64,000 nucleotides of DNA, taken from Candidatus Nitronereus thalassa. Lineage in GTDB: Bacteria; Nitrospirota; Nitrospiria; Nitrospirales; UBA8639. A model generated the notes under the pieces. The model made no database searches, was not told the origin of the DNA, and was given only the letters and a program-made list of their open reading frames with translations. The stretch spans positions 558,001 to 622,000 of the forward strand of contig NZ_JAQOUE010000001.1 of assembly GCF_032191465.1 (NCBI RefSeq). The letters run 5' to 3'. This document shows, one piece after another, positions 7,217-25,602 of this stretch (within the stretch, counting starts at the first letter, position 1; each line of letters opens with the position of its first letter). The position numbers and the translations under genes are program-made.

Positions 7217-8101
7217 ATGAAAAAACTTAAAGGTATTGGATTGCTATTACTGTCCAATATTCTCATCATTGCCACTCTTTCAATTACCTTTACCATATTG
7301 TCGCAAGTTATCTTGCCGGCGTTTGGCATTGATGTCCGCGGCATTGTCTCAGGTCCAAATCTACTGTTTGCCGCATTTTTTGGTTTCGGAGGCGCTTTCT
7401 TAAGTTTGGCGATGTCGAAAACTCTGGCCAAAATGATGGTGGGAGCTTCCCCCATCACCCAACCCAAGACTCAGGCTGAACAGTTAATTTTTGAAACCGT
7501 TCAAAAAATTTCCGAGCGGCTAAAGATTGCTATGCCTGAGGTCTACGTATATGAATCCCCAGATCCAAACGCTTTTGCCACGGGGCCATCACGCAATAAT
7601 TCGATGGTCGCGGTTTCCACAGGCTTGCTACAAAACCTAAATCAAAATGAGATTCGAGCCGTCTTAGCACATGAAATGGGCCATGTATATAACGGTGACA
7701 TGTTCACCACGACTGTCTTAGCCGGTCTGATGAACACCTTTGTGTATATCATTGCCAACATGATTTACCGATTCTTGGCGGAACGGAGTGAAGGGATGGC
7801 GTTTGTGGCGTACTATATTATCCACATTGGGCTTTCCTTCCTTGCCATGATTCCTATTAGCTGGTGGTCACGGAGGCGGGAATTCTCTGCCGATCGGTTT
7901 GCCGCAAACACCGTTGGAAAAGAACACATGATCTCGGCCCTTCAAGCTATCAATCGATGGATTAACCAAGTCCAGTATCAATATCACAACGAAGATGCTC
8001 TAGCGACAATGAAAATCTCAGGTCAAACTCGAAGTTTCATGCAAATTTTCTCTACCCATCCTCCTATTGAAGCAAGAGTTGCTGCGCTACAAGATTTATA
8101 A
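7217..8101 (+). CDS. htpX: Membrane zinc metalloprotease HtpX
   Basis: M48 family integral-membrane protease that degrades misfolded membrane proteins. 294 residues is the normal length. Two hydrophobic segments near the N-terminus (about 7-35 and 45-65) precede the catalytic domain. Zinc ligands are H152 and H156 of HEMGH, and E222 in RREFSADRFA; E153 is the catalytic base. A further hydrophobic region lies at about 165-215. The ATG has a strong AAAGGAGG ribosome site. It heads the first copy of a three-gene unit (htpX, exported 233-aa protein, giant secreted protein) that recurs downstream, where its counterpart is a pseudogene. Confidence 0.97.
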   Translation: MKKLKGIGLLLLSNILIIATLSITFTILSQVILPAFGIDVRGIVSGPNLLFAAFFGFGGAFLSLAMSKTLAKMMVGASPITQPKTQAEQLIFETVQKISERLKIAMPEVYVYESPDPNAFATGPSRNNSMVAVSTGLLQNLNQNEIRAVLAHEMGHVYNGDMFTTTVLAGLMNTFVYIIANMIYRFLAERSEGMAFVAYYIIHIGLSFLAMIPISWWSRRREFSADRFAANTVGKEHMISALQAINRWINQVQYQYHNEDALATMKISGQTRSFMQIFSTHPPIEARVAALQDL

Positions 8102-8118
8102 TTACGAATACTTCTAAT

Positions 8119-8163
8119 AAATGAAGGCTGTCAGGATTTTTACATTAATGGCGGCCTTCATTT
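8119..8163 (+). terminator. Possible hairpin terminator after htpX
   Basis: A 10-bp inverted repeat, AAATGAAGGC with GCCTTCATTT, separated by 25 bases and starting 18 bases after the htpX stop. The following TTTACTTCTT is only a weak U-tract. It may attenuate read-through from htpX into the exported-protein gene. Confidence 0.4.
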
Positions 8164-8539: not shown

Positions 8540-9241
8540 ATGAGTGTATTGGCCAAAAAGCATTTCATTTCTCTAGTTATCCTTGGATTGATATTTGTCT
8601 TAAGCCCTCATGCCTACAGTGGACATGGGGCCACCAATGTATTACGACAAAATTTGGGACAGCTTACCGAGGCAGCAGATATCATTTTGGTTGGCAAAGT
8701 GATCGAAATGACAGATGGTCTGGCCGAAAACAACCTTCCCTACACCGAGATTACGTTTGAGGTCAGTCAAACAATTAAGTCCGGTGGGTATCAATTCGTC
8801 ACCTCCCCTAATTGGGAACGCAGAAACACTACGGCACTACCTGGACGCCAAACCTTTACCTATCGGCAATTTGGGCTCTTAAAACCCAGAGATATGGGAG
8901 ATGGAAAAACTTTGGCTGTCACCTTAGATGGATTCCCCAAATACACAATTGACGAAGAAGTGATGGTGTTTCTCTATAAGCCCGCCACACAAACTGGGTT
9001 TCGAACAACCGTGGGATTAGCGCAGGGGAAGTTTTCTATCAAAAAAGGAAAAATGAGGAACATCATCAATAACCGTCATCTGTTTGCCAATATGGAGATC
9101 GAGCGGGAGAACCTACAGGCTAGCGAACGACAGATGATGACACAACGATCGGGTCCCGTTGATGCCGACATGATGATTACCCTTGTCTCGCGCGCGGTGA
9201 AAGAAGGTCTGTTTAACCGCTTTAAAGTTGCACCAGAATGA
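8540..9241 (+). CDS. Exported protein, partner of giant secreted protein (copy 1)
   Basis: 233 residues. An N-terminal signal peptide (about residues 1-28: LAKKHFISLVILGLIFVLSP, then HAYS) precedes a mature region beginning GHGATNVLRQNLGQL. The core pattern ADIILVGKVIEMTDG, then PYTEITFEVSQTIKSG, resembles a loosely defined class of bacterial exported proteins in which an AD-I-VVG-V strand precedes a beta-rich domain. No catalytic residues are apparent. The TGA stop overlaps the ATG of the giant gene (ATGA), implying coupled translation and possibly joint function. From base 8621 on it is identical to copy 2 at 16421-17041; only the signal peptide differs. Function unknown. Confidence 0.8.
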   Translation: MSVLAKKHFISLVILGLIFVLSPHAYSGHGATNVLRQNLGQLTEAADIILVGKVIEMTDGLAENNLPYTEITFEVSQTIKSGGYQFVTSPNWERRNTTALPGRQTFTYRQFGLLKPRDMGDGKTLAVTLDGFPKYTIDEEVMVFLYKPATQTGFRTTVGLAQGKFSIKKGKMRNIINNRHLFANMEIERENLQASERQMMTQRSGPVDADMMITLVSRAVKEGLFNRFKVAPE

Positions 9242-10533
9242 AAGTATTCACTTCCAAATCATTTCAGGTATTACTTTGTTGCCTTTTGAGCTTGTGGAAT
9301 GCAAACCCGACCCATGCTGGCGGTCCGATCTCTCTTTTTGATAGCGGGACGCCGACTCTCTGGGGAGGAGGAACCTTTGCCACGTTTCCCATCCCCTATC
9401 TCAAGGATCAAGGTCCATTAGGCCCCTTGACCAAAGGTGAAGCTGACGCATTAACGACATTTAGCATGAACGAATGGGATGCCGTTTCCAATTCAACATT
9501 TTCAGTGATTGACGGCGGGGATACTCCCTTCGACATTACATCCGCCAATGCTTCCAACTATCTCTTTACGTTTCATGGCGCGGTCATTGATGTGGTGTAT
9601 GATCATGATGGAACAATTTGCACAGCCATATTTGGGTGTCCTCCCGGCGTTCTCGGATTAGGAGGTCCTATTTTTACTGGAACCGCTGTGCCTGAAATAG
9701 CTTCAGCTATGGTCCTCATGAACGGAGCCACGATTGATCCCTTAGATCCGGGAGGAGCGGCATATCGCGTAGTGTTCAGCCAAGAAGCCGGACATGCCAT
9801 TGGCCTGCATCATGATCAAACCAATGGAGCCGTGTCCTTTTTTGGTGATGAATCTTCTCCCACTGGGTGTCCCAGCGTGGGCACACCAACATTCTCCGAT
9901 TTTACCGCAATGTATCCCTTTGCCGATGTTACCCCCTTTGGCCCAGGCGCAGAAGCGGCTTCAATTGATCATCTTGAAGACCTCGATGCACTATCAAGAT
10001 TTCATCCGGTCGCAAACTATAGCACCACGACTGGCACCATTACTGGCACAGTCTTTCAATCCGATGGCATCACCCCAGTCAATGGCGTCAATGTCATCGT
10101 GCGAAGCATGACCAATCCATTTGGCGATGCACGCTCGACCATCACAGGCGACCTAGATTGCAATTCCCCTGGGTGTAAATGTTTTGATGACCCTCAATGT
10201 ACCCCGAGTAATGCATTTGAAGGAACCTTTGTTATTACCGGCTTGACCCCAGGGGTTAACTACACCTTAGCCATTGACAATATCGTCGACGGAGCCTTTC
10301 CCCAACTTCCGGCCCCTGTATTTACTGAAGAGTATTGGAATGACACCTCAGAATCTGGCAATGCGTCGACGGACAATCCCTGCGACCTCACTCCGATCAT
10401 TCCGACTGCCGGGTCCACCTTCGTGGCGGACTTTCTTCTAAATGCCCCAGATACTACTGGACCCACTGTCACGATTAACCAAGCCGCCGGACAAACAGAT
10501 CCCACCAACGCCAGTCCCATCAACTTTACTGTC
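8621..10533 (+). repeat. Identical block, first copy (pair with 16421-18333)
   Basis: Compared line by line with 16421-18333 at a constant offset of 7800 bases, I see no difference. The first mismatch is 10534 (A against G), the next 10549, and the sequences part after about 10590. The block covers the mature part of the exported protein, the coupled start and the first ~430 codons of the giant gene. Confidence 0.92.
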
Positions 10534-13500
10534 ATCTTCAGCGAACCCGTGAATGACTTCGCTACCGGCGATGTGACCCTAGGTGGAACGGCTGGGGCAA
10601 CGACCGGCATCGTCACCGGCAGTGGCACCACCTATAACGTGGCCGTCACCGGTATGACCTCAGACGGGACGGTCATTGCTACAATTCCCGAAGGCGTCGC
10701 CACAGACAGTTTCAGCAATGCGAATAGTGCTTCGACCAGTACCGATAACTCCGTCACCTTCTCCCCCGACACCACAGGGCCCACCGTCACTATTAACCAA
10801 GCCGCTGGCCAAACGGATCCAACCAACCTCAGTCCCGTGAACTTTACCGTGATCTTTAGTGAACCCGTTTACAACTTTGCCACCGGCGATGTGACGCTGA
10901 GTGGTACGGCTGGCGCCACCACAGCGACGGTTACTGGCAGTGGCACGACCTATAACGTCGCCGTTAATGGAGGCGCTGGAGCCTATACGTGGGACGGAAA
11001 TTCGTGGGCAGATTACTCGGCATTCATGAGCCCAATTACTTCTAGTGTCAAAGCGAACTTGCAAGCGATCATGACCGTTGGGCAGGCCAACGGCCGCGTC
11101 CTCGGTCGCATGGGACAAATTGGAGATTCCATCACCAATTCATCGGCATATTTCAGGAATGGCATTTTGCATGGTTCATTGGGAAATGAGACCAACCATG
11201 ATTACAGCAACATCCGTTCATGGATGGCCTATAGCGGCACCCAACCGGCCGATAATTCTTCTTTTTACAATGCTTATGGGAAAGGTTGGCCATACGGAAA
11301 CTTTGGAGGATGGACCATCCGTGATGCCGTCACTGCAGGCCACCCATCTGTGGCAGTAGAAGTTGGAGATGGAATTACCCCTGGCCAGTTCTCCTGGGCT
11401 CTTCTCATGTTTGGCACCAACGACATCGACAATTTTAATTGGGATGCACAAGCGTGGAAATCGGAATACTCAACATTTATTCAGAATTTCATGGCCCTCG
11501 GCGTCGTGCCTGTTTTAAGCACGATACCGCCTGAACAAGCCCACATCGGCGATGGACGCGTTGAACTGGCCAATCAAAAGATCAAAGAATTGGCCAATGA
11601 GCTAAATATTCCTTTCGTGGATTTCTATGCCCTCGTGCTTCACTATCAACCGATTAACTGGGTGGGTACGCTAATCAGCAGTGATGGGACTCACCCGAGT
11701 GCTGGCGGCGGGGGGCGAGATTTTTCACAAACTGGTCTGACTTCCAGCGATGGGTATGCGGCACGAACCAAACTTTCGTGGGACATGGCCGAAAAACTGA
11801 AGGCCATCGTTTTTGATGATGGACCCCCAGAAGACACGATGACCTCAGAGGGCACCATTATCGCCACGATCGCGGGCGGCGTGGCCACCGATAGTTTCGG
11901 CAATCCCAATACGGCTTCCACAAGTACCGACAACCAAGTCACATTCTCCACTGATACGACCGGCCCGACCGTCACCATCAATCAAGCCGCCGGGCAACCT
12001 GATCCGACCAATGTCTCGCCAATCAACTTTACGGTCGTCTTTAGCGAACCAGTGGCAGATTTTGCCACCGGGGATGTCACATTGAGTGGAAACGCTGGGG
12101 CCACGACCGCCACCGTGACGGGCACGGGCACCACCTACAACGTGGCCGTCAGTGGGATGACCGCGACTGGCACCGTCACCGCCACGATTGCCGCGGGCGT
12201 CGCTTCCGATAGTTTCGGCAATCCCAACACCGCTTCGACCAGTACGGACAATGTGGTGAGCTATACCGTCCCGACCGGGTCTCCCGTGGTGGCCTGGACG
12301 GCCGTGACCCAGAACCCCAACGGCACGTGGACAGATTCCTCCTGGGACAATCGCAGTTTTCGGATTCTGCTGAAAGGCGAAAACATCACCGAGAGTGGGG
12401 CTACCGTCCAGCTCACCCTCCGTGGCCGCGCCTCTAGCAGTTACACCCTCCAACGGGTCTCGCTCGTCCAGCGCGAGGGAAGTACACTCAATGGCCTCGA
12501 TAGCACCTTCGCGCCCGTCACCTTTGGGGCCGCGTGGGAGGCCGGGGTCACGGTCCCCGCGGGCGGCACCATCACCAGTGATCCGCTGGCCTTCGACCTC
12601 GTCACCGGCCAGGATGTCTTTGTCACCTTCTGGGCGCCGGCGGGCAATCCCACAGTCTGGCGTGGGGGGGGCGGTAGTGGCACGACGGTGTGGACCATCA
12701 TCAATGAGGATCAGTCCGCCGCCATCGACTGGGGCAGTTTTACTACCGAAACAAACAGTTCAATACTGTATGCCACCGACCAACTGGAGGTCGTAGTGAC
12801 CAGCGGGCCGGATTTGGCCCCGCCGGTGGTCACGCCACCAGCACCGAGTACGGTGGCGGCCGTGGATGCCACGGGCACTCCAGCCAGTGCGCCGGCGATT
12901 CAAGCCTTCTTGACGGGGGCCACTGCCATTGACAATGTGGATGGCGATCTGAGCAGCGTCATCACGCATAATGCCCCGGCGCAATTTCCTTTGGGGTCGA
13001 CGGTCGTGACCTTCAGTGTGACGGATACCGCCGGCCATACCGGGACCGCGCAAGCCACCCTCACCGTGACGGATCAAACCCCGCCGGTGCTGACTCCGCC
13101 CGGGTCAATCGCCGTGCTCTCCCCCGATGGCAATCCGTTACCGGCCACCGAGCCGGCGATCCAAGCCTTCTTGACCGGCGCCACCGCCACGGACAACGTG
13201 GATGGCGATCTGAGCAGCGTCATCACACATGATGCTCCCGCACAATTTTCGGTAGGCGCCACCGTGGTCACCTTTGGTGTGACGGATACCGCCGGGCATA
13301 CCGGGACCGCGCAAGCCACCCTCACCGTGACAAGCCCGAATGTCGCGCCGAGTATTACGCAACAGCCCCTGGACCAAAGTGTGATCGAAGGCCAACCGGC
13401 CACGTTTACCGTGACCGCAATCGGGTCGACCCCGTTGAGTTATCAATGGCAGCGGGATGGCGTGAATATTCCCAACGCCACGAGTGCAAGTTATACGGTC

Positions 13501-15483
13501 AATCCCACGAGTGTGAATGATAGTGGTGCAACCTTTGCGGTGATGGTCACCAATCCGGCGGGCAATATTACCAGTGCGCCCGCCACGCTGACCGTGACGC
13601 CGCCAGGCGGTGGGTCCGTGGTGGCCTGGACGGCCGTGACCCAGAACCCCAACGGCACGTGGACAGATTCCTCCTGGGACAATCGCAGTTTTCGGATTCT
13701 GCTGAAAGGCGAAAACATCACCGAGAGTGGGGCTACCGTCCAGCTCACCCTCCGTGGCCGCGCCTCTAGCAGTTACACCCTCCAACGGGTCTCGCTCGTC
13801 CAGCGCGAGGGAAGTACACTCAATGGCCTCGATAGCACCTTCGCGCCCGTCACCTTTGGGGCCGCGTGGGAGGCCGGGGTCACGGTCCCCGCGGGCGGCA
13901 CCATCACCAGTGATCCGCTGGCCTTCGACCTCGTCACCGGCCAGGATGTCTTTGTCACCTTCTGGGCGCCGGCGGGCAATCCCACAGTCTGGCGTGGGGG
14001 GGGCGGTAGTGGCACGACGGTGTGGACCATCATCAATGAGGATCAGTCCGCCGCCATCGACTGGGGCAGTTTTACTACCGAAACAAACAGTTCAATACTG
14101 TATGCCACCGACCAACTGGAGGTCGTAGTGACCAGCGGGCCGGATTTGGCCCCGCCGGTGGTCACGCCACCAGCACCGAGTACGGTGGCGGCCGTGGATG
14201 CCACGGGCACTCCAGCCAGTGCGCCGGCGATTCAAGCCTTCTTGACGGGGGCCACTGCCATTGACAATGTGGATGGCGATCTGAGCAGCGTCATCACGCA
14301 TAATGCCCCGGCGCAATTTCCTTTGGGGTCGACGGTCGTGACCTTCAGTGTGACGGATACCGCCGGCCATACCGGGACCGCGCAAGCCACCCTCACCGTG
14401 ACGGATCAAACCCCGCCGGTGCTGACTCCGCCCGGGTCAATCGCCGTGCTCTCCCCCGATGGCAATCCGTTACCGGCCACCGAGCCGGCGATCCAAGCCT
14501 TCTTGACCGGCGCCACCGCCACGGACAACGTGGATGGCGATCTGAGCAGCGTCATCACACATGATGCTCCCGCACAATTTTCGGTAGGCGCCACCGTGGT
14601 CACCTTTGGTGTGACGGATACCGCCGGGCATACCGGGACCGCGCAAGCCACCCTCACCGTGACAAGCCCGAATGTCGCGCCGAGTATTACGCAACAGCCC
14701 CTGGACCAAAGTGTGATCGAAGGCCAACCGGCCACGTTTACCGTGACCGCAATCGGGTCGACCCCGTTGAGTTATCAATGGCAGCGGGATGGCGTGAATA
14801 TTCCCAACGCCACGAGTGCAAGTTATACGGTCAATCCCACGAGTGTGAATGATAGTGGTGCAACCTTTGCGGTGATGGTCACCAATCCGGCGGGCAATAT
14901 TACCAGTGCGCCCGCCACGCTGACCGTGACGCCGCCAGGCGGTGGGTCCGTGGTGGCCTGGACGGCCGTGACCCAGAACCCCAACGGCACGTGGACAGAT
15001 TCCTCCTGGGACAATCGCAGTTTTCGGATTCTGCTGAAAGGCGAAAACATCACCGAGAGTGGGGCTACCGTCCAGCTCACCCTCCGTGGCCGCGCCTCTA
15101 GCAGTTACACCCTCCAACGGGTCTCGCTCGTCCAGCGCGAGGGAAGTACACTCAATGGCCTCGATAGCACCTTCGCGCCCGTCACCTTTGGGGCCGCGTG
15201 GGAGGCCGGGGTCACGGTCCCCGCGGGCGGCACCATCACCAGTGATCCGCTGGCCTTCGACCTCGTCACCGGCCAGGATGTCTTTGTCACCTTCTGGGCG
15301 CCGGCGGGCAATCCCACAGTCTGGCGTGGGGGGGGCGGTAGTGGCACGACGGTGTGGACCATCATCAATGAGGATCAGTCCGCCGCCATCGACTGGGGCA
15401 GTTTTACTACCGAAACAAACAGTTCAATACTGTATGCCACCGACCAACTGGAGGTCATAGTGACCAGCGGGCCGGAACAGTAA
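9238..15483 (+). CDS. Giant secreted mosaic protein, copy 1: matrixin-like, Ig-like, SGNH hydrolase, HYR repeats
   Basis: 2081 residues with a Sec signal peptide (1-27, ending THA). Order: matrixin-like domain (28-250) with Q182-E183-xx-H186-xx-G189-xx-H192 and Met-turn AMYP (M225), lacking the first zinc His; carboxypeptidase-regulatory-like domain (about 262-395); Ig-like domains starting at 405, 511 and 906 (DTTGPTVTINQAAGQ repeats). The second is split after residue 577 by an SGNH hydrolase of about 290 residues: GDS (S631), FGTND (N728), SSDGTHP (D816, H819). Then come beta-sandwich modules starting VVAW at 1017, 1461 and 1905, with HYR-like pairs and an Ig domain (PSITQQP) between them. 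No LPxTG, PEP-CTERM or other sorting tail is visible. Probably a surface or extracellular adhesin/esterase. Confidence 0.85.
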   Translation: MKVFTSKSFQVLLCCLLSLWNANPTHAGGPISLFDSGTPTLWGGGTFATFPIPYLKDQGPLGPLTKGEADALTTFSMNEWDAVSNSTFSVIDGGDTPFDITSANASNYLFTFHGAVIDVVYDHDGTICTAIFGCPPGVLGLGGPIFTGTAVPEIASAMVLMNGATIDPLDPGGAAYRVVFSQEAGHAIGLHHDQTNGAVSFFGDESSPTGCPSVGTPTFSDFTAMYPFADVTPFGPGAEAASIDHLEDLDALSRFHPVANYSTTTGTITGTVFQSDGITPVNGVNVIVRSMTNPFGDARSTITGDLDCNSPGCKCFDDPQCTPSNAFEGTFVITGLTPGVNYTLAIDNIVDGAFPQLPAPVFTEEYWNDTSESGNASTDNPCDLTPIIPTAGSTFVADFLLNAPDTTGPTVTINQAAGQTDPTNASPINFTVIFSEPVNDFATGDVTLGGTAGATTGIVTGSGTTYNVAVTGMTSDGTVIATIPEGVATDSFSNANSASTSTDNSVTFSPDTTGPTVTINQAAGQTDPTNLSPVNFTVIFSEPVYNFATGDVTLSGTAGATTATVTGSGTTYNVAVNGGAGAYTWDGNSWADYSAFMSPITSSVKANLQAIMTVGQANGRVLGRMGQIGDSITNSSAYFRNGILHGSLGNETNHDYSNIRSWMAYSGTQPADNSSFYNAYGKGWPYGNFGGWTIRDAVTAGHPSVAVEVGDGITPGQFSWALLMFGTNDIDNFNWDAQAWKSEYSTFIQNFMALGVVPVLSTIPPEQAHIGDGRVELANQKIKELANELNIPFVDFYALVLHYQPINWVGTLISSDGTHPSAGGGGRDFSQTGLTSSDGYAARTKLSWDMAEKLKAIVFDDGPPEDTMTSEGTIIATIAGGVATDSFGNPNTASTSTDNQVTFSTDTTGPTVTINQAAGQPDPTNVSPINFTVVFSEPVADFATGDVTLSGNAGATTATVTGTGTTYNVAVSGMTATGTVTATIAAGVASDSFGNPNTASTSTDNVVSYTVPTGSPVVAWTAVTQNPNGTWTDSSWDNRSFRILLKGENITESGATVQLTLRGRASSSYTLQRVSLVQREGSTLNGLDSTFAPVTFGAAWEAGVTVPAGGTITSDPLAFDLVTGQDVFVTFWAPAGNPTVWRGGGGSGTTVWTIINEDQSAAIDWGSFTTETNSSILYATDQLEVVVTSGPDLAPPVVTPPAPSTVAAVDATGTPASAPAIQAFLTGATAIDNVDGDLSSVITHNAPAQFPLGSTVVTFSVTDTAGHTGTAQATLTVTDQTPPVLTPPGSIAVLSPDGNPLPATEPAIQAFLTGATATDNVDGDLSSVITHDAPAQFSVGATVVTFGVTDTAGHTGTAQATLTVTSPNVAPSITQQPLDQSVIEGQPATFTVTAIGSTPLSYQWQRDGVNIPNATSASYTVNPTSVNDSGATFAVMVTNPAGNITSAPATLTVTPPGGGSVVAWTAVTQNPNGTWTDSSWDNRSFRILLKGENITESGATVQLTLRGRASSSYTLQRVSLVQREGSTLNGLDSTFAPVTFGAAWEAGVTVPAGGTITSDPLAFDLVTGQDVFVTFWAPAGNPTVWRGGGGSGTTVWTIINEDQSAAIDWGSFTTETNSSILYATDQLEVVVTSGPDLAPPVVTPPAPSTVAAVDATGTPASAPAIQAFLTGATAIDNVDGDLSSVITHNAPAQFPLGSTVVTFSVTDTAGHTGTAQATLTVTDQTPPVLTPPGSIAVLSPDGNPLPATEPAIQAFLTGATATDNVDGDLSSVITHDAPAQFSVGATVVTFGVTDTAGHTGTAQATLTVTSPNVAPSITQQPLDQSVIEGQPATFTVTAIGSTPLSYQWQRDGVNIPNATSASYTVNPTSVNDSGATFAVMVTNPAGNITSAPATLTVTPPGGGSVVAWTAVTQNPNGTWTDSSWDNRSFRILLKGENITESGATVQLTLRGRASSSYTLQRVSLVQREGSTLNGLDSTFAPVTFGAAWEAGVTVPAGGTITSDPLAFDLVTGQDVFVTFWAPAGNPTVWRGGGGSGTTVWTIINEDQSAAIDWGSFTTETNSSILYATDQLEVIVTSGPEQ
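9340..9960 (+). other. Matrixin-like (M10) domain with QExxH in place of HExxH
   Basis: The VFSQEAGHAIGLHHD segment aligns with the metzincin zinc motif HExxHxxGxxH, and TAMYP matches the Met-turn. The first ligand codon is CAA (Gln182), one base from His CAT/CAC. E183, H186, G189 and H192 are kept. The identical stretch occurs in copy 2 (Q at 17581). Reduced or altered zinc binding is inferred. Confidence 0.65.
10966..11838 (+). other. SGNH/GDSL hydrolase domain inserted in an Ig-like domain
   Basis: The Ig-like strand ending TTYNVAV is followed directly by NGGAGAYTW and about 290 residues carrying SGNH blocks: GQIGDSIT (Ser631), MFGTND (Asn728) and SSDGTHPS (Asp816, His819). The Ig-like sequence then resumes at MTSEGTIIATIAGGVATDSFGN. 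In uninterrupted neighbours these two halves are joined through TGMTSDGT. Thus a complete esterase-type domain sits in one loop of the host fold. The oxyanion Gly of block II is not certain. Confidence 0.75.
12286..15480 (+). repeat. 1332-bp tandem repeats (2.4 copies) in giant gene copy 1
   Basis: Unit boundaries at 12286, 13618 and 14950, each beginning GTGGTGGCCTGGACGGCC, exactly 1332 bases (444 codons) apart. Each full unit encodes one VVAW beta-sandwich module, two HYR-like domains and one Ig domain. The third is cut after the VVAW module. By eye the copies are identical at DNA level except for a G-to-A at about 15454 (Val to Ile). The segment looks visibly richer in G+C than flanking genes. 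Confidence 0.92.
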
Positions 15484-15502
15484 GCCCATAAGTTTGCATC
15501 TT

Positions 15503-16078
15503 ATGGCCTGGCAGGAAGTGTGGCTCTATGATTCTCCGGACCCCAATGCATTTGCCGCAGGACCTTCTAAAAACAACTCCATGGTCGCCGTTTCGACAGG
15601 ATTGTTGCAAAATCTAAGTGAAGGTGAAGTGCGCACTGTGCTCGCACATGAAATGGGACATGTGTATAACGGTAACATGTTCACCACCACTGTCCTGGCC
15701 GGACTGATGAATACCTTCGTGTATTTCATTAGCCGAATGGTTTACAGACAGGTCGCTAAACGCAATGCCATGTTGGGTTTTGCTGTATATTTCTTCCTTC
15801 AAATTGTCTTGTCTATCTTAGCGATGATTCCGATCAGCTGGTGGTCGCGACGCCGAGAATTTTCTGCGGACCGCTTTGCCGCGAATACCGTTGGCAAGGA
15901 ACAATGATCTCGGCCCTTCAGGCCATCGATCGATGGGTCAACCAAGTGCAATACCAATATCACACGGAAGATGCGCTCGCGACCATGAAAATTTTATGGT
16001 CAAACGAGTAGTTTCATGCAAATCTTCTCAACCCATCCCCCAATCGAAGCACGAGTGGCTGCGCTGCAAAAACAATAA
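15503..16078 (+). pseudogene. Truncated, frameshifted htpX copy
   Basis: Homologous to HtpX from about residue 107 to the end (EVWLYDSPDPNAF, AHEMGHVYNGNMFTTTVLAG, SWWSRRREFSADRFAANTVGKE). The N-terminal membrane segments are missing; the fragment begins some 20 bases after the stop of giant copy 1. One base is lost near 15902 (GAACA-ATGATC where htpX has GAACACATG). One base is gained near 15995 (ATTTTATGG against ATCTCAGG), which restores the frame to THPPIEARVAALQKQ and a stop. The HEMGH motif survives, but no membrane-anchored protease can be made. It has diverged visibly from the intact gene at 7217, so it is an old duplicate. Confidence 0.9.
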
Positions 16079-16106
16079 GAATAGCAATTTTTCTGTCATT
16101 CCACAT

Positions 16107-16146
16107 AAAAAGCCGTCAATTCAAAAATTGAATTGACGGCTTTTTT
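16107..16146 (+). terminator. Strong rho-independent terminator after the htpX pseudogene
   Basis: A perfect 16-bp stem, AAAAAGCCGTCAATTC with GAATTGACGGCTTTTT, around a 7-base loop, ending in a run of six T. It insulates the first unit (or the pseudogene remnant) from the second exported/giant gene pair. Confidence 0.9.
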
Positions 16147-16339: not shown

Positions 16340-17041
16340 ATGAGGTTAAGGTTCAAAAAGTCTTCCATTACTGCCCTTGCAGTAGGACTAATGATGACCG
16401 CCTGTAACATTGCCTATGGCGGACATGGGGCCACCAATGTATTACGACAAAATTTGGGACAGCTTACCGAGGCAGCAGATATCATTTTGGTTGGCAAAGT
16501 GATCGAAATGACAGATGGTCTGGCCGAAAACAACCTTCCCTACACCGAGATTACGTTTGAGGTCAGTCAAACAATTAAGTCCGGTGGGTATCAATTCGTC
16601 ACCTCCCCTAATTGGGAACGCAGAAACACTACGGCACTACCTGGACGCCAAACCTTTACCTATCGGCAATTTGGGCTCTTAAAACCCAGAGATATGGGAG
16701 ATGGAAAAACTTTGGCTGTCACCTTAGATGGATTCCCCAAATACACAATTGACGAAGAAGTGATGGTGTTTCTCTATAAGCCCGCCACACAAACTGGGTT
16801 TCGAACAACCGTGGGATTAGCGCAGGGGAAGTTTTCTATCAAAAAAGGAAAAATGAGGAACATCATCAATAACCGTCATCTGTTTGCCAATATGGAGATC
16901 GAGCGGGAGAACCTACAGGCTAGCGAACGACAGATGATGACACAACGATCGGGTCCCGTTGATGCCGACATGATGATTACCCTTGTCTCGCGCGCGGTGA
17001 AAGAAGGTCTGTTTAACCGCTTTAAAGTTGCACCAGAATGA
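16340..17041 (+). CDS. Exported protein, partner of giant secreted protein (copy 2)
   Basis: 233 residues, same mature sequence as the gene at 8540 but a different export signal: MRLRFKKSSITALAVGLMMTACNIAYG. This signal contains MTAC, a poor lipobox, so lipidation at that Cys is conceivable; otherwise cleavage after the signal peptide is expected. Bases 16421-17041 match 8621-9241 exactly by eye. The TGA again overlaps the giant gene start (ATGA). The gene follows a strong terminator and about 190 bases of AT-rich intergenic DNA, so it must have its own promoter, which I could not identify. Confidence 0.8.
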   Translation: MRLRFKKSSITALAVGLMMTACNIAYGGHGATNVLRQNLGQLTEAADIILVGKVIEMTDGLAENNLPYTEITFEVSQTIKSGGYQFVTSPNWERRNTTALPGRQTFTYRQFGLLKPRDMGDGKTLAVTLDGFPKYTIDEEVMVFLYKPATQTGFRTTVGLAQGKFSIKKGKMRNIINNRHLFANMEIERENLQASERQMMTQRSGPVDADMMITLVSRAVKEGLFNRFKVAPE

Positions 17042-18333
17042 AAGTATTCACTTCCAAATCATTTCAGGTATTACTTTGTTGCCTTTTGAGCTTGTGGAAT
17101 GCAAACCCGACCCATGCTGGCGGTCCGATCTCTCTTTTTGATAGCGGGACGCCGACTCTCTGGGGAGGAGGAACCTTTGCCACGTTTCCCATCCCCTATC
17201 TCAAGGATCAAGGTCCATTAGGCCCCTTGACCAAAGGTGAAGCTGACGCATTAACGACATTTAGCATGAACGAATGGGATGCCGTTTCCAATTCAACATT
17301 TTCAGTGATTGACGGCGGGGATACTCCCTTCGACATTACATCCGCCAATGCTTCCAACTATCTCTTTACGTTTCATGGCGCGGTCATTGATGTGGTGTAT
17401 GATCATGATGGAACAATTTGCACAGCCATATTTGGGTGTCCTCCCGGCGTTCTCGGATTAGGAGGTCCTATTTTTACTGGAACCGCTGTGCCTGAAATAG
17501 CTTCAGCTATGGTCCTCATGAACGGAGCCACGATTGATCCCTTAGATCCGGGAGGAGCGGCATATCGCGTAGTGTTCAGCCAAGAAGCCGGACATGCCAT
17601 TGGCCTGCATCATGATCAAACCAATGGAGCCGTGTCCTTTTTTGGTGATGAATCTTCTCCCACTGGGTGTCCCAGCGTGGGCACACCAACATTCTCCGAT
17701 TTTACCGCAATGTATCCCTTTGCCGATGTTACCCCCTTTGGCCCAGGCGCAGAAGCGGCTTCAATTGATCATCTTGAAGACCTCGATGCACTATCAAGAT
17801 TTCATCCGGTCGCAAACTATAGCACCACGACTGGCACCATTACTGGCACAGTCTTTCAATCCGATGGCATCACCCCAGTCAATGGCGTCAATGTCATCGT
17901 GCGAAGCATGACCAATCCATTTGGCGATGCACGCTCGACCATCACAGGCGACCTAGATTGCAATTCCCCTGGGTGTAAATGTTTTGATGACCCTCAATGT
18001 ACCCCGAGTAATGCATTTGAAGGAACCTTTGTTATTACCGGCTTGACCCCAGGGGTTAACTACACCTTAGCCATTGACAATATCGTCGACGGAGCCTTTC
18101 CCCAACTTCCGGCCCCTGTATTTACTGAAGAGTATTGGAATGACACCTCAGAATCTGGCAATGCGTCGACGGACAATCCCTGCGACCTCACTCCGATCAT
18201 TCCGACTGCCGGGTCCACCTTCGTGGCGGACTTTCTTCTAAATGCCCCAGATACTACTGGACCCACTGTCACGATTAACCAAGCCGCCGGACAAACAGAT
18301 CCCACCAACGCCAGTCCCATCAACTTTACTGTC
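16421..18333 (+). repeat. Identical block, second copy (pair with 8621-10533)
   Basis: Second member of the direct repeat described for 8621. Its left edge is abrupt, at the junction of signal peptide and mature exported protein, with only tgccta shared just upstream. Its right edge fades within the first Ig-like domain. Confidence 0.92.
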
Positions 18334-21300
18334 GTCTTCAGCGAACCCATGAATGACTTCGCTACCGGCGATGTGACCCTAGGTGGAACAGCTGGGGCAA
18401 CCACGGCTACCGTTACCGAAATCGCCCCCAATGATGGCACCACCTACAACGTGGCTGTCAGTGGAATGTCGCAATCAGGTACGGTCATCGCGACAATCCC
18501 AGGTGGCATTGCGACGAATTCCTCTGGCAATAACAACACAGCATCAACAAGCACCGATAATACAGTCTCCTTTGAAATCCTACATACCCTAACGGTGAAT
18601 TTGGCTGGAACTGGAGGCATCACAATCAACAGCACACCAAACGGCATTGATTGTGGGTCAGACTGTACGGAAGATTATTTAGAGGGGACCCAAGTAACTC
18701 TTACCGCGACACCTTCACCAGGAACAGTCTTTTCCCGTTGGAGTGGTGCCTGCACTGATACGGCCCCGGCCCCGTGCATTGTAACCATGACCCAAGCTCA
18801 GACAGTAACAGCGCATTTCCTGGCAATTCTATACCCCTTAGACGTAGCGCTCATGGGAAGCGGCACAGGAAGTCTAACAACTACTAATGGAACTATTGAT
18901 TGTCCAGGCGTATGCCAAGCGCTATTTCAAGTTGACTCGTTGGTGCTACTTCAGGCTCAACCAAATCCAGGATCAGCCCTTGCGGGTTGGCTTGGATCAG
19001 GTTGCACCACTGAGTCTTGCTGGATTCGCATGGATAGTCCCAAAACTGTAACCGCTATATTTGAGGTGGCAGAAACCTTAGCCGTCACTCTGGCAGGGAC
19101 GGGAACGGGGGCAGTCACTAGTGATAGTGGGGCAATCAATTGCCCAGACACCTGCATGGATGATTTCCCAATAAATGCCCTTGTTACGTTGACAGGATCC
19201 CCTTCCTCAAATTCATTTTTAGAAGGATGGAATGGGTGTGGCCAAATCGTTGCGAATACATGCCAAGTAACAATGGATGCAGCCAAAAATGTTACGGCAA
19301 CTTTTTCTCCTATACTTCAAGCATTGAATGTAAATATTGCATCAACTCCCACTTATTTAATCGACATGTCTTTACACAGCGAACCCGGAGATTCCATTGG
19401 GCAAGAACAGGATTGGGTAATTACAAATTCTGATTTAAACAATGGGACCCCGACCATAACTTATGATGTAACAGGAGATGGACTAGTAGATGGATTAGGA
19501 CTAGCCTTTAATGGTCCTAATTTTTCCTCTCTCAATTTCAATATCACCTCGGATGAACTTAGCACCAATCTAAACCCTGGAATCTATGAAATGGCTCAAC
19601 GTTACCCTTTTGAAGCTCCAGGCCACCCAGGGCTTAGTTTTACGATAAATGGAAGAAGTTGTAATAACGCAAATGGAAGTTTTCATATATTGGACATAGA
19701 GTTTAACCAATTAGATCTTACTCGTTTGCGAACTCAATTTGTACAACAATGTGAATCCCATGTTGGAGCACTACTGGGAGACATCTATTTTGAAGCAAAC
19801 GCGGGAGATGGAACTGGAAGAGTAGTTAGCAACCCTCCTGGCATTAACTGCCAAGGAGGCTGCACGGTAAATTATCCCCAGGATACGACAGTTATCCTTA
19901 CGGCAATTCCTGATTCAGGCTCGACATTTACTGGTTGGAGTGGAGCGAATTGTAACGGATTAGGCACCTGCTCAGTTTCTATGGCTACTGCCAAAAATAT
20001 CACTGCGACTTTTTCAACCTCTTCACAACCCACACACTCCCTTACTGTAACCAAACAAGGAAGTGGTGTTATAACAAGTTTTCCTGCAGGCATTTTGTGT
20101 AAAAATGATTGCTCCGAACCCTATTTTCCAGGCACAAAAGTCACACTGAAAGGAATTGCAGATCCAGGGTATATTTTTGAGGGATGGAGTGGACTTTGCA
20201 TGGGAAGAGGACCTTGCAAAGTAACCATGGATGCAGCAAAAAATGTTACGGCAACTTTTTCTCCTATACCACAGAATACCTTTCCCCTAACAGTCTCGGT
20301 TCGAGACCCACAAGTGCCATTTATTGAACTACATGTCCAGAGTGCCCCAGGAGATTTTGTTGGACAAGGACAGAATAATCTTTTCACCAATGCCGAAGGA
20401 CGTCTGAGTGTGACTCCATACTTAAGTGATTTCACAGGAGACGGGGTTACTGATCGAATTAGATTCAGCTATACAACGTCCAATCCCCAATTACCCTCCC
20501 GTTGGAGCTTAACTTTGGGAACGGATAAATTAGGAAGCAATCTTGCCACAGGAAATTATTCAAATGCACAAAGAGCTGCCTTTGCGAATCCTGGTCACCC
20601 AGGGCTGGACTTTGATATGGAGTCGAGAGGTTGCAACACTGTTACAGGCAATTTCACGGTATCAGAATTTAATTCAAATTTTTTAGAAAGCGATCGACAT
20701 ATTAATCTCCTCCGTGCGCATTTTGAGCAACACTGTGAAGATGCAGTTCCGGCACTATTAGGAGATATTTATCTCAATGGCATTGCCGGTGATGGTGCTG
20801 GAAATGTCACGAGTGATATTACAGGTATTGATTGTGGTCTGGATTGCACAGAGTTTTATAGCCCCGGTACGATGGTTATTCTAACCGCATCCCCGCTACC
20901 CGGCTCAATTTTTACTGGCTGGAGCGGAATAGGATGTAGTGGCAGTGGAACATGTACAGTCACAATGACCCAAGCCCAACAAGTATGGGCAACTTTTTCT
21001 AAAGCGTTCGCTCTCAACCTTACAATTAATGGAAGTGGGATAGTTGACATTGCACCAGGCAGCCTCTCTTGTTCTGTTAGCTGCTCACATGAATTCACTC
21101 GCCTATCTGAAGTCACACTTTCAGCCACTCCTGATCCAGGAACTGTTTTTCATAGTTGGAGTGGAGGGGGGTGTAGTGGAAGCAACCCAACTTGTGTTGT
21201 ATCAATGGATCAATTACAAAACGTCACGGCAACATTTACCTCTGATACTACAGGTCCCGCCGTCACTATTGAACAAGAGGCGGGGCAACTCGATCCAACA

Positions 21301-24300
21301 AACACTTCCCCAATAAATTTCACCGTCGTGTTTAATGAAGTCGTTACTGATTTTACCACCGGTGATGTCACCCTCGGCGGAACGGCCGGAGGCACGCTCC
21401 TCGGGACCGTCACTGGCAGCGGCACCACCTATAACGTCGCCGTCACCGGTATGACCACCGACGGAACGGTAACCGCCTCGATCGGGTCTGGCGTCGCCAC
21501 AGACAGTTTCAGCAATGCCAATAGTGCCTCGACCAGTACCGATAACACCGTCACCTACTCTACTGATACAACCGGACCCACCGTCACCATTGACCAAGCC
21601 GTCGGCCAACCTGATCCGACCAATGCCTCGCCAATCAACTTTACGGTCGTCTTTAGCGAACCAGTGGCAGATTTTGCCACCGGGGATGTCACATTGAGTG
21701 GAAGCGCTGGGGCGACAACCGCCACCGTGACGGAAATCGCTCCCACGGATGGCACCACCTATAACATTGCCGTCAGTGGAATGGCTGGGGCCGGCACCGT
21801 GATTGCAAGCATTTCCGCAGGCGTGGCCATCGACGCATTGGGTAACGGCAACGCACTTTCGACTAGCACAGATAATACTGTCACGTATGATCCTACCCCC
21901 CCCGTGGTCACCCCGCCGGCTGATAGTACCGTCCCCGCGGTCGATGCCACAGGCACTCCCGCCAGTGCGACCGTCATCCAAACCTTTCTGACGAGTGCCA
22001 CGGCCACGGACAATGTGGAGGGCAATCTCACTAATGCGATCACGCATGATGCCCCCGCACAATTTCCTCTGGGGGCTACCGTCGTTACTTTTAGCGTCAC
22101 CGATACTGCCGGCAATACCGGCACCGCCCAAGCTACACTCACCATCGCCGACCAAACGTCGCCTGTTCTGACCCCACCCGGGGCGCTCGCTGTGCTTTCC
22201 CCCGATGGCAACCCGGTCCCGAACACCGAGCCCGCGATCCAGGCGTTTCTAACCGGGGCCACGGCCACCGACAATGTGGAAGGCACTCTCACTAACGCGA
22301 TCACGCATGATGCCCCCGCACAATTTCCTCTGGGGGCTACCGTCGTTACTTTTAGCGTCACCGACACCGCTGGCAACACCAGCACCGCCCAAGCCACCGT
22401 CACCGTCACCCCGCCAGGCGGCGGACCACCCGTGGTCGCCTGGGAAGCCGCGACGCAAAATCCCAGTGGCGTGTGGAACAATTCCGGGGTGACTAATCGC
22501 ACCTTCCGGATGCTACTACAGGGGGCGCAGATTACCGAGAGTGGGGCCACCGTCCAACTGACGCTGCGGGGCCGCACCTCCGGCAGTTACACCCTTCAGC
22601 GACTCTCCCTCCTCCAGCGCGACGGGAGTACGCTCAATGGCGTGGCCAGTACCTATCAAGAAGTCACCTTTGGCAGTACCTGGGCGGCGGGGGTCACCGT
22701 GCCCGCCGGCGCCACCGTGACCAGTGATCCCATCCCCTTTGAGCTCGTGGCCGGACAGGATGTGTTTGTGACCTTCTGGGTACCCGCCAACAATCCAACG
22801 GTGTATCGCAATGGCGGCAGCGGCATCTCCTTCTGGAGTATCGCCAATGTCGACCATACCAATACCCTCGACTGGACGGGCTTGTCGACCACCTCGGCCA
22901 CCTCCTATCTGTATGCCCTCGAGCAGCTCGAGGTCATCACCGCCAGCGGCCCGGATCTCATTCCCCCCGTCATCACCCCGCCGGCTGATAGTACCGTCCC
23001 CGCGGTCGATGCCACAGGCACTCCCGCCAGTGCGACCGTCATCCAAACCTTTCTGACGAGTGCCACGGCCACGGACAATGTGGAGGGCAATCTCACTAAT
23101 GCGATCACGCATGATGCCCCCGCACAATTTCCTCTGGGGGCTACCGTCGTTACTTTTAGCGTCACCGATACTGCCGGCAATACCGGCACCGCCCAAGCTA
23201 CACTCACCATCGCCGACCAAACATCGCCTGTTCTGACCCCACCCGGGGCGCTCGCTGTGCTTTCCCCCGATGGCAACCCGGTCCCGAACACCGAGCCCGC
23301 GATCCAGGCGTTTCTAACCGGGGCCACGGCCACCGACAATGTGGAAGGCACTCTCACTAACGCGATCACGCATGATGCCCCCGCACAATTTCCTCTGGGG
23401 GCTACCGTCGTTACTTTTAGCGTCACCGACACCGCTGGCAACACCAGCACCGCCCAAGCCACCGTCACCGTCACCGTCCCGGATCTCATTCCCCCTGTCA
23501 TCACCCCGCCGGCTGATAGTACCGTCCCCGCGGTCGATGCCACAGGCACTCCCGCCAGTGCGACCGTCATCCAAACCTTTCTGACGAGTGCCACGGCCAC
23601 GGACAATGTGGAGGGCAATCTCACTAATGCGATCACGCATGATGCCCCCGCACAATTTCCTCTGGGGGCTACCGTCGTTACTTTTAGCGTCACCGATACT
23701 GCCGGCAATACCGGCACCGCCCAAGCTACACTCACCATCGCCGACCAAACGTCGCCTGTTCTGACCCCACCCGGGGCGCTCGCTGTGCTTTCCCCCGATG
23801 GCAACCCGGTCCCGAACACCGAGCCCGCGATCCAGGCGTTTCTAACCGGGGCCACGGCCACCGACAATGTGGAAGGCACTCTCACTAACGCGATCACGCA
23901 TGATGCCCCCGCACAATTTCCTCTGGGGGCTACCGTCGTTACTTTTAGCGTCACCGACACCGCTGGCAACACCAGCACCGCCCAAGCCACCGTCACCGTC
24001 ACCCCGCCAGGCGGCGGACCACCCGTGGTCGCCTGGGAAGCCGCGACGCAAAATCCCAGTGGCGTGTGGAACAATTCCGGGGTGACTAATCGCACCTTCC
24101 GGATGCTACTACAGGGGGCGCAGATTACCGAGAGTGGGGCCACCGTCCAACTGACGCTGCGGGGCCGCACCTCCGGCAGTTACACCCTTCAGCGACTCTC
24201 CCTCCTCCAGCGCGACGGGAGTACGCTCAATGGCGTGGCCAGTACCTATCAAGAAGTCACCTTTGGCAGTACCTGGGCGGCGGGGGTCACCGTGCCCGCC

Positions 24301-25602
24301 GGCGCCACCGTGACCAGTGATCCCATCCCCTTTGAGCTCGTGGCCGGACAGGATGTGTTTGTGACCTTCTGGGTACCCGCCAACAATCCAACGGTGTATC
24401 GCAATGGCGGCAGCGGCATCTCCTTCTGGAGTATCGCCAATGTCGACCATACCAATACCCTCGACTGGACGGGCTTGTCGACCACCTCGGCCACCTCCTA
24501 TCTGTATGCCCTCGAGCAGCTCGAGGTCATCACCGCCAGCGGCCCGGATCTCATTCCCCCCGTCATCACCCCGCCGGCTGATAGTACCGTCCCCGCGGTC
24601 GATGCCACAGGCACTCCCGCCAGTGCGACCGTCATCCAAACCTTTCTGACGAGTGCCACGGCCACGGACAATGTGGAGGGCAATCTCACTAATGCGATCA
24701 CGCATGATGCCCCCGCACAATTTCCTCTGGGGGCTACCGTCGTTACTTTTAGCGTCACCGATACTGCCGGCAATACCGGCACCGCCCAAGCTACACTCAC
24801 CATCGCCGACCAAACATCGCCTGTTCTGACCCCACCCGGGGCGCTCGCTGTGCTTTCCCCCGATGGCAACCCGGTCCCGAACACCGAGCCCGCGATCCAG
24901 GCGTTTCTAACCGGGGCCACGGCCACCGACAATGTGGAAGGCACTCTCACTAACGCGATCACGCATGATGCCCCCGCACAATTTCCTCTGGGGGCTACCG
25001 TCGTTACTTTTAGCGTCACCGACACCGCTGGCAACACCAGCACCGCCCAAGCCACCGTCACCGTCACCCCGCCAGGCGGCGGACCACCCGTGGTCGCCTG
25101 GGAAGCCGCGACGCAAAATCCCAGTGGCGTGTGGAACAATTCCGGGGTGACTAATCGCACCTTCCGGATGCTACTACAGGGGGCGCAGATTACCGAGAGT
25201 GGGGCCACCGTCCAACTGACGCTGCGGGGCCGCACCTCCGGCAGTTACACCCTTCAGCGACTCTCCCTCCTCCAGCGCGACGGGAGTACGCTCAATGGCG
25301 TGGCCAGTACCTATCAAGAAGTCACCTTTGGCAGTACCTGGGCGGCGGGGGTCACCGTGCCCGCCGGCGCCACCGTGACCAGTGATCCCATCCCCTTTGA
25401 GCTCGTGGCCGGACAGGATGTGTTTGTGACCTTCTGGGTACCCGCCAACAATCCAACGGTGTATCGCAATGGCGGCAGCGGCATCTCCTTCTGGAGTATC
25501 GCCAATGTCGACCATACCAATACCCTCGACTGGACGGGCTTGTCGACCACCTCGGCCACCTCCTATCTGTATGCCCTCGAAAACTTAGAAGTCGTTCCTT
25601 AA
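17038..25602 (+). CDS. Giant secreted mosaic protein, copy 2: matrixin-like, InlB-like repeats, HYR repeats
   Basis: 2854 residues. The first ~430 (signal peptide, matrixin-like domain with QExxHxxGxxH, regulatory-like domain, start of Ig domain at 405) match copy 1 exactly in DNA up to about 18333. From about residue 515 to 1401 come seven InlB-like B repeats (GxVTS.., Cys pairs, WSG, VTATF endings) interleaved with two copies of an unnamed ~160-residue domain (about 761-921, 1082-1251) marked by GxY.NAQR, GHPGL, GCN and ALLGDIY. Two Ig-like domains follow (1402-1618). The C-terminus is HYR pairs and VVAW beta-sandwich modules starting at 1799, 2330 and 2685. No SGNH domain and no sorting signal. 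Likely an extracellular adhesin or matrix protein. Confidence 0.85.
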   Translation: MKVFTSKSFQVLLCCLLSLWNANPTHAGGPISLFDSGTPTLWGGGTFATFPIPYLKDQGPLGPLTKGEADALTTFSMNEWDAVSNSTFSVIDGGDTPFDITSANASNYLFTFHGAVIDVVYDHDGTICTAIFGCPPGVLGLGGPIFTGTAVPEIASAMVLMNGATIDPLDPGGAAYRVVFSQEAGHAIGLHHDQTNGAVSFFGDESSPTGCPSVGTPTFSDFTAMYPFADVTPFGPGAEAASIDHLEDLDALSRFHPVANYSTTTGTITGTVFQSDGITPVNGVNVIVRSMTNPFGDARSTITGDLDCNSPGCKCFDDPQCTPSNAFEGTFVITGLTPGVNYTLAIDNIVDGAFPQLPAPVFTEEYWNDTSESGNASTDNPCDLTPIIPTAGSTFVADFLLNAPDTTGPTVTINQAAGQTDPTNASPINFTVVFSEPMNDFATGDVTLGGTAGATTATVTEIAPNDGTTYNVAVSGMSQSGTVIATIPGGIATNSSGNNNTASTSTDNTVSFEILHTLTVNLAGTGGITINSTPNGIDCGSDCTEDYLEGTQVTLTATPSPGTVFSRWSGACTDTAPAPCIVTMTQAQTVTAHFLAILYPLDVALMGSGTGSLTTTNGTIDCPGVCQALFQVDSLVLLQAQPNPGSALAGWLGSGCTTESCWIRMDSPKTVTAIFEVAETLAVTLAGTGTGAVTSDSGAINCPDTCMDDFPINALVTLTGSPSSNSFLEGWNGCGQIVANTCQVTMDAAKNVTATFSPILQALNVNIASTPTYLIDMSLHSEPGDSIGQEQDWVITNSDLNNGTPTITYDVTGDGLVDGLGLAFNGPNFSSLNFNITSDELSTNLNPGIYEMAQRYPFEAPGHPGLSFTINGRSCNNANGSFHILDIEFNQLDLTRLRTQFVQQCESHVGALLGDIYFEANAGDGTGRVVSNPPGINCQGGCTVNYPQDTTVILTAIPDSGSTFTGWSGANCNGLGTCSVSMATAKNITATFSTSSQPTHSLTVTKQGSGVITSFPAGILCKNDCSEPYFPGTKVTLKGIADPGYIFEGWSGLCMGRGPCKVTMDAAKNVTATFSPIPQNTFPLTVSVRDPQVPFIELHVQSAPGDFVGQGQNNLFTNAEGRLSVTPYLSDFTGDGVTDRIRFSYTTSNPQLPSRWSLTLGTDKLGSNLATGNYSNAQRAAFANPGHPGLDFDMESRGCNTVTGNFTVSEFNSNFLESDRHINLLRAHFEQHCEDAVPALLGDIYLNGIAGDGAGNVTSDITGIDCGLDCTEFYSPGTMVILTASPLPGSIFTGWSGIGCSGSGTCTVTMTQAQQVWATFSKAFALNLTINGSGIVDIAPGSLSCSVSCSHEFTRLSEVTLSATPDPGTVFHSWSGGGCSGSNPTCVVSMDQLQNVTATFTSDTTGPAVTIEQEAGQLDPTNTSPINFTVVFNEVVTDFTTGDVTLGGTAGGTLLGTVTGSGTTYNVAVTGMTTDGTVTASIGSGVATDSFSNANSASTSTDNTVTYSTDTTGPTVTIDQAVGQPDPTNASPINFTVVFSEPVADFATGDVTLSGSAGATTATVTEIAPTDGTTYNIAVSGMAGAGTVIASISAGVAIDALGNGNALSTSTDNTVTYDPTPPVVTPPADSTVPAVDATGTPASATVIQTFLTSATATDNVEGNLTNAITHDAPAQFPLGATVVTFSVTDTAGNTGTAQATLTIADQTSPVLTPPGALAVLSPDGNPVPNTEPAIQAFLTGATATDNVEGTLTNAITHDAPAQFPLGATVVTFSVTDTAGNTSTAQATVTVTPPGGGPPVVAWEAATQNPSGVWNNSGVTNRTFRMLLQGAQITESGATVQLTLRGRTSGSYTLQRLSLLQRDGSTLNGVASTYQEVTFGSTWAAGVTVPAGATVTSDPIPFELVAGQDVFVTFWVPANNPTVYRNGGSGISFWSIANVDHTNTLDWTGLSTTSATSYLYALEQLEVITASGPDLIPPVITPPADSTVPAVDATGTPASATVIQTFLTSATATDNVEGNLTNAITHDAPAQFPLGATVVTFSVTDTAGNTGTAQATLTIADQTSPVLTPPGALAVLSPDGNPVPNTEPAIQAFLTGATATDNVEGTLTNAITHDAPAQFPLGATVVTFSVTDTAGNTSTAQATVTVTVPDLIPPVITPPADSTVPAVDATGTPASATVIQTFLTSATATDNVEGNLTNAITHDAPAQFPLGATVVTFSVTDTAGNTGTAQATLTIADQTSPVLTPPGALAVLSPDGNPVPNTEPAIQAFLTGATATDNVEGTLTNAITHDAPAQFPLGATVVTFSVTDTAGNTSTAQATVTVTPPGGGPPVVAWEAATQNPSGVWNNSGVTNRTFRMLLQGAQITESGATVQLTLRGRTSGSYTLQRLSLLQRDGSTLNGVASTYQEVTFGSTWAAGVTVPAGATVTSDPIPFELVAGQDVFVTFWVPANNPTVYRNGGSGISFWSIANVDHTNTLDWTGLSTTSATSYLYALEQLEVITASGPDLIPPVITPPADSTVPAVDATGTPASATVIQTFLTSATATDNVEGNLTNAITHDAPAQFPLGATVVTFSVTDTAGNTGTAQATLTIADQTSPVLTPPGALAVLSPDGNPVPNTEPAIQAFLTGATATDNVEGTLTNAITHDAPAQFPLGATVVTFSVTDTAGNTSTAQATVTVTPPGGGPPVVAWEAATQNPSGVWNNSGVTNRTFRMLLQGAQITESGATVQLTLRGRTSGSYTLQRLSLLQRDGSTLNGVASTYQEVTFGSTWAAGVTVPAGATVTSDPIPFELVAGQDVFVTFWVPANNPTVYRNGGSGISFWSIANVDHTNTLDWTGLSTTSATSYLYALENLEVVP
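18580..21240 (+). repeat. Seven InlB-like B repeats with two unnamed domains (copy 2 only)
   Basis: Repeat starts at about 18583, 18838, 19075, 19800, 20035, 20785 and 21004. Each is 70-80 residues with a G-x-V/I turn, a DC..DC or NC..xC cysteine pair, a second CxxxG-C pair, W.G/WSG and a terminal VTATF-like strand. The repeats are divergent in DNA, unlike the C-terminal repeats, and visibly more AT-rich. Two copies of an unnamed domain (DMSLHSEPGD.., IELHVQSAPGD..) lie between them. The block is absent from copy 1, where the sequences diverge near 10590/18390. Confidence 0.75.
21895..25599 (+). repeat. HYR-pair and VVAW-module repeats, giant gene copy 2
   Basis: Order H-M-H-H-M-H-M, where H is a 528-bp pair of HYR-like domains and M is a ~537-bp beta-sandwich module beginning GTGGTCGCCTGG. 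M starts at 22432, 24025 and 25090, so spacings are 1593 and 1065 bases; the extra 528 is a doubled H. Copies are almost identical in DNA (for example caaacgtcg against caaacatcg). The last M ends the protein with ENLEVVP in place of EQLEVIT. Confidence 0.9.

Follow-up and report, generated by a model that had tools for sequence, protein, structure and literature searches.

We consider it probable that a 64,000-nucleotide stretch of the Candidatus Nitronereus thalassa genome (the window) holds two paralogous two-gene modules in which a TIMP-like partner has been kept on a probably inactive matrixin domain, the two forming a binding or folding couple rather than a protease with its inhibitor. 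The fold prediction, gene adjacency, ligand loss, exact tract and rate asymmetry behind this reading were computed. An earlier note on this DNA had described the order htpX, exported protein gene, giant gene as occurring twice, with a truncated second htpX, two open exported/giant pairs and different central domains in the giants, and this layout is borne out. The ORF of the first htpX (7217-8101) and the four ORFs of the pairs (8540-9241, 9238-15483, 16340-17041 and 17038-25602) are intact and the order is seen twice in the ORF positions, the second htpX is a pseudogene with stops and a frameshift, and the central domains are an SGNH hydrolase in giant 1 and InlB-type repeats in giant 2. The features, in window positions, are as follows.

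7217..8101, + strand: htpX, M48 protease (NF003965, E=2.5e-87); resident syntenic gene, outside the module.
8540..9241, + strand: exported protein copy 1, predicted NTR/TIMP-like, 233 aa, signal peptide about residues 1-27, mature part Cys-free (family alignments A3/A6).
8621..10533, + strand: exact tract, first copy (equal to 16421-18333), running from where the mature exported protein begins to a point inside the giant's first Ig-like repeat; 1,913 nt, zero mismatches, diverged flanks.
9238..15483, + strand: giant 1, with signal peptide, matrixin-type domain, Ig-like repeats with a nested SGNH hydrolase, and HYR/Ig/beta modules.
9781..9816, + strand: degenerate zinc site of giant 1, QEAGHAIGLHHD (relatives: HExGHxxxxxH).
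11119..11709, + strand: SGNH/GDSL hydrolase domain of giant 1, motifs GDSI, GTND and DGTHPS (PF13472, E=3e-11).
12284..15480, + strand: C-terminal repeat block of giant 1, rich in GC, with a 1332-nt unit whose copies are 100% identical.
about 15503..16072, + strand: htpX remnant, about 103 initial codons absent, frameshifted, matching HtpX residues 104-293 with stops.
16107..16145, + strand: strong terminator-like hairpin of 18 pairs, separating the htpX remnant from exported copy 2.
16340..17041, + strand: exported protein copy 2, predicted NTR/TIMP-like, with its own signal peptide and the mature part of copy 1.
16421..18333, + strand: exact tract, second copy, 1,913 nt (equal to 8621-10533).
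17038..25602, + strand: giant 2, with matrixin domain as in giant 1, then InlB B-type repeats, Ig-like modules, eight HYR modules and three beta modules.
17581..17616, + strand: degenerate zinc site of giant 2, QEAGHAIGLHHD, identical with that of giant 1.

The exported protein matched no Pfam or NCBIfam family, a Pfam search of seven family members up to E=1 gave no match, TIMP/NTR models included, PDB sequence searches with it were uninformative, and plain scans of genome contigs and viral contigs with the window protein returned no match. The NTR/TIMP lead arose from a sequence pattern, prior to the structure search. The AlphaFold model of the protein (20 sequences; pTM 0.67, mean pLDDT 65) is of middling confidence. 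In the VIA structure comparison, where models without a clear match typically give Z of 7-8, the best match exceeded that range and was agrin NtA (Z 10.4 over 118 residues, 3.0 Å), followed by PCOLCE NTR (9.5), N-TIMP-3 (9.5), TIMP-1/2 (8-9) and then the NTR domains of complement C3/C5. Foldseek likewise placed the NTR/TIMP group on top, at ranks 1-15, with a best E of only 1.3e-3. The exported protein is predicted from this model to have an NTR/TIMP-type OB-fold, an assignment of fold rather than of TIMP family membership, because the mature window protein lacks the TIMP-defining cysteines and no sequence profile connects the exported family with TIMP/NTR. According to a review (PMC9409782), TIMPs are a family with expression throughout the Metazoa, and the N-terminal Cys1-X-Cys3 of the mature protein chelates the protease zinc. 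The mature window protein contains zero cysteines, so this feature is absent and chelation of the Cys1-X-Cys3 type is impossible. Its signal is of the Sec type, with no obvious lipobox.

The exported protein has relatives in Pseudoalteromonas, Thalassotalea, Microbulbifer, Shewanella and Bowmanella and in other Nitrospirota families, and every member of the close subfamily with downstream sequence precedes a gene homologous to the N-terminal domain of the giant. Across ten whole gammaproteobacterial genomes the exported gene precedes a matrixin in 13/13 cases and such matrixins have the exported gene in 13/13; the close subfamily in Nitrospirota gives 7/7. The wider family, defined by profile A6, occupies 27 places in 19 of 296 Nitrospirota genomes, and once three places cut by contig ends are set aside, a matrixin lies directly downstream on the same strand at 20 of the 24 testable places. 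Strong or weak matrixin matches number only about 75 in the 296 genomes, so chance adjacency at this frequency is negligible. Six distant partners, from six genomes, score above the curated Pfam Peptidase_M10 cut-off. The stop codon of the window exported gene and the start codon of the giant overlap by 4 nt, and the gap in relatives is mostly -4 to -1 nt (range -11 to +45 nt). The earlier note had asked whether the exported protein always precedes a matrixin-like giant; by these counts a matrixin nearly always follows, the exceptions being four Nitrospirota matches without an adjoining matrixin (G150:C5, G134:C83, G244:C1 and a weak one in G020); given these four, the NTR-like fold can apparently serve other uses too. 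Judged by gene order, the conserved unit is the exported-matrixin gene pair, not three genes. Identity of the window exported protein to gammaproteobacterial relatives is about 40-45%, against a comparison range of 20-31%; a horizontal origin of the pair from Gammaproteobacteria is not claimed, since the long-branched trees give no direction.

Several variants of the pair were observed. Pseudoalteromonas carries tandem pairs, three in T1lg88 and two each in T1lg48 and T1lg75 (L051, L046, L047), so tandem multiplication of the pair without htpX occurs elsewhere. One Nitrospirota locus (L040, G150:C127, 282-2921) encodes an apparent single-chain fusion of an NTR/TIMP-like part, a zincin-like HELGHTVGL part and InlB/DUF5648 modules, the protease part having no Pfam name. 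Three partners (L037, L038, L039) read HExGHxLxLxDLY, with the third zinc ligand position apparently Asp. The NTR-like genes without adjoining matrixin lie at 1521-2204 (L103, G150:C5), 1519-2058 (L104, G134:C83) and 8936-9526 (L034, G244:C1), and the weak NTR-like match (L105, G020:C103, 3780-4472) lies amid secreted proteins with HEDYH/HEDSH motifs, which are possibly another metallopeptidase type. G174 has a second matrixin with no NTR-like partner (L106, G174:C39, 2684-3970), and the ORF after it resembles, by eye, a CRISPR Cse1-type protein. An AIM24 neighbour, sought in eight relatives without a positive control, gave no match.

The matrixin domain of the window giants is homologous to gammaproteobacterial matrixins, with E down to 5e-47, and on this ground is a derived rather than canonical matrixin. 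The label 'matrixin-like' used in the earlier note holds for descent and not for the active site, which does not fit the canonical HExxHxxGxxH/D. The first zinc His is replaced by Gln in both copies (QEAGHAIGLHHD; codon CAA at 9781), the zinc site being HExGHxxxxxH in 18/18 aligned relatives, and the adjoining Phe is replaced by Ala, which makes a single sequencing error unlikely as the cause of the Gln. The domain keeps the Glu, the second and third zinc His and the Met-turn Met (Met197 of the domain, invariant in alignment A5, within ETMFP in relatives and TAMYP in the window). Pfam PF00413 found no match in the window copy, against 15/15 gammaproteobacterial relatives matched (best 6.9e-6), and the structure model of the domain (pLDDT 52) was not good enough to search by fold. 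In matching trees the window matrixin domain has an end branch of 2.93, roughly fivefold the 0.54 of the exported protein, the matrixin length being uncertain as the tree tool flagged the long branch and unusual composition. The Shewanella and Bowmanella end branches show the opposite, with 0.26-0.40 for the exported protein and 0.13-0.19 for the matrixin. We infer from these alignments and trees that proteolysis has been lost or strongly changed in the window domain while its partner is still constrained.

The retained Glu, His and Met residues, the predicted TIMP-like fold, the upstream place of the partner in the operon and its conservation would also fit an exported protein that is a true TIMP-like inhibitor protecting the producer, with the window matrixin still active through an unusual Gln ligand, and a Gln at the first position might still coordinate zinc. 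We regard this as unlikely, given that the first zinc His and its neighbouring Phe have both been replaced, that the window copy has a very long branch and has lost the Pfam match found in its relatives, and that a cysteine-free partner lacks the TIMP mode of chelation.

The earlier note knew of no described system of this composition, which was too strong a statement, as metzincin/partner pairs are described from Listeria monocytogenes and Pseudomonas aeruginosa. The Listeria pair comprises a secreted metzincin, Mtz, and a TIMP-like lipoprotein, Tim, which Mtz cleaves and releases (PMC8235301). It resembles the window pair in having a TIMP-like protein adjoining a secreted metzincin, and differs in that the protease gene comes first, the partner is a lipoprotein, the locus is associated with a prophage and the protease is short with an intact HExxH, whereas in the window the TIMP-like gene comes first and lacks an obvious lipobox. 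The TIMP likeness of Tim was obtained with Phyre2 at about 60% confidence, and Tim is likened to the window family by description. The published cleavage of a TIMP-like partner by its own metzincin (PMC8235301) raises the reading that the protease releases the exported protein, as its substrate or as a signal; this seems improbable here, where a Sec-type signal with no obvious lipobox would leave no anchor for release and the protease site is degenerate.

In P. aeruginosa, BamI and Mep72 bind each other, coexpression relieves toxicity in E. coli, and no protease activity was found for Mep72 (PMC4334185). As in the window, where the genes overlap, the small gene comes directly before that of a secreted metzincin with several domains. 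The BamI and Mep72 genes are cotranscribed, and BamI, compared here by description, is reported to be partly natively unfolded, with no NTR-like fold ascribed to it. AprA and AprI, a serralysin-type metzincin and its inhibitor (PMC4334185 and general knowledge), share the plan of a secreted metzincin with a small partner, but belong to other protease and inhibitor families and are set apart by description. Animal TIMPs and matrixins (MMPs) likewise unite an NTR/OB-fold partner with a matrixin domain; the bacterial partner differs in having no Cys1-X-Cys3, no disulphides and no sequence similarity that we could find, and in being encoded next to its matrixin by an overlapping gene. Our literature search, covering few subscription papers, found only isolated bacterial metzincin-partner pairs, no paper describing this exported family and no experiment on any member.

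For the binding or folding couple that we favour, we propose the following mechanism. The first gene would encode a small exported protein with the predicted NTR/TIMP-type OB-fold, and the second, overlapping gene a secreted protein of several domains, the N-terminal one being a matrixin (metzincin). Across the wider family, by analogy with BamI-Mep72 and Mtz-Tim, the small protein would most likely bind this matrixin domain in the course of export or afterwards, in the periplasm or outside, and once bound would restrain the domain or aid its folding. In the window lineage, where the matrixin is without its first zinc ligand, this domain would have evolved rapidly and the partner remained under constraint, and the pair would now probably form, as a binding/folding couple, the base of large adhesin-like proteins, of which one bears an SGNH hydrolase. 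An inactive domain would no longer need inhibition, so a partner kept even then points to a role in folding, docking or structure. The parts of this scheme that we infer are binding, loss of catalysis, esterase activity and a surface role.

Metzincin-partner pairs in bacteria are already known. What is new is how broadly an NTR-like family goes with matrixins, across two phyla, together with its gene order, an apparent fusion and a partner kept beside a damaged protease site. A bacterial family of predicted NTR/TIMP fold that adjoins matrixins in both phyla and includes a probable fusion offers a testable model for how such pairs originate, and the window provides a natural separation-of-function case, in which the partner is conserved and the protease site is broken, arguing that the partner does more than inhibit. 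Tentatively, and as a speculation more doubtful than the reading of the window itself, this widespread and unnamed family could be the counterpart in prokaryotes of the animal TIMP-MMP pair and perhaps even its source, the couple having here outlived the loss of the protease to become a non-catalytic binding module of giant adhesins.

The earlier note had made htpX a member of a unit whose partner genes move together, and this part does not survive. Fifteen genomes from the same family or order (L087-L101) keep the gene order AlaDH-h121-h139-h96-SQS-cupredoxin-htpX, with two of the genes undetected in one of them (G133), and their loci yielded no relative of the exported gene. TatD and AmiC directly follow htpX in G179, G065 and G081, so window positions 8102-30075 are extra DNA relative to those three. 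A contig of the same genus (L084) has the same gene order up to htpX and ends inside it, covering the upstream side only. No HtpX homologue was found near the exported/giant pair in the retrieved loci of relatives, an outcome that the earlier note had itself named as refuting its unit. By this synteny, htpX is an unrelated resident neighbour of the pair. Tandem duplication of a three-gene unit in which HtpX works with the pair is thus very improbable and largely contradicted: the order does occur twice and the htpX copies are possibly sisters (FastTree 0.91; grouping not rejected, p-AU 0.43), but htpX resides in the same neighbourhood in genomes without an adjoining pair, the two intergenic sequences from htpX to the exported gene have nothing in common, and the remnant is nearer at the nucleotide level to the htpX of another genus (78%) than to the window htpX1 (74.5%). 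The two window copies are 74.5-76% identical in nucleotides and may be sisters, the trees leaving this undecided; separate origins, which the identities prompted us to consider, are not claimed for the same reason. One genome of the same genus (G125, 99% complete) has no HtpX match, though almost all relatives carry htpX.

The mature exported proteins are identical across all 206 residues, with differences confined to the signal peptide, and the giants are nucleotide-identical up to position 10533. In the signal-peptide codons just 5' of the exact tract 39/81 positions differ, drift is rapid 3' of it, and the C-terminal modules and repeats of the two giants are about 72% identical. Given 76% identity and assuming site independence, an exact tract of 1,913 nt has a log10 p of about -225 and is not expected by chance. 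On these comparisons the tract is the product of recent copying, by gene conversion or an equivalent, unlike htpX and the C-terminal repeats. The simplest reading is that two old paralogous pairs have been homogenised recently, as couples, by gene conversion that the signal peptides and the outer, C-terminal modules escaped, remaining different. That the repeat is an assembly artefact of a single pair is scarcely credible, for although 1,913 identical nt and perfect 1332-nt internal repeats are prone to misassembly, the assembly is 4.0 Mb in 2 contigs and the copies differ in signal peptide, upstream region and C-terminal architecture, so there are at least two genes.

Beyond the shared part, giant 1 is composed of SGNH, Ig-like, HYR and unnamed C-terminal modules and giant 2 of InlB-type, Ig-like and HYR modules with the same C-terminal modules. 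The three SGNH motifs of giant 1 are intact, and ester hydrolysis may thus be what this protein now catalyses. The C-terminal repeat blocks (12284-15480 and 21889-25400) have 62-63% GC against about 46% in their surroundings, with internal repeats that are perfect (1332 nt) or 99% identical (1593 nt), which suggests imported or recombining modules. A C-terminal module of about 175 residues (giant 1 residues 1017-1190), present in three copies per giant, has no confident Pfam name and may resemble the beta-sandwich domains of GDSL esterases.
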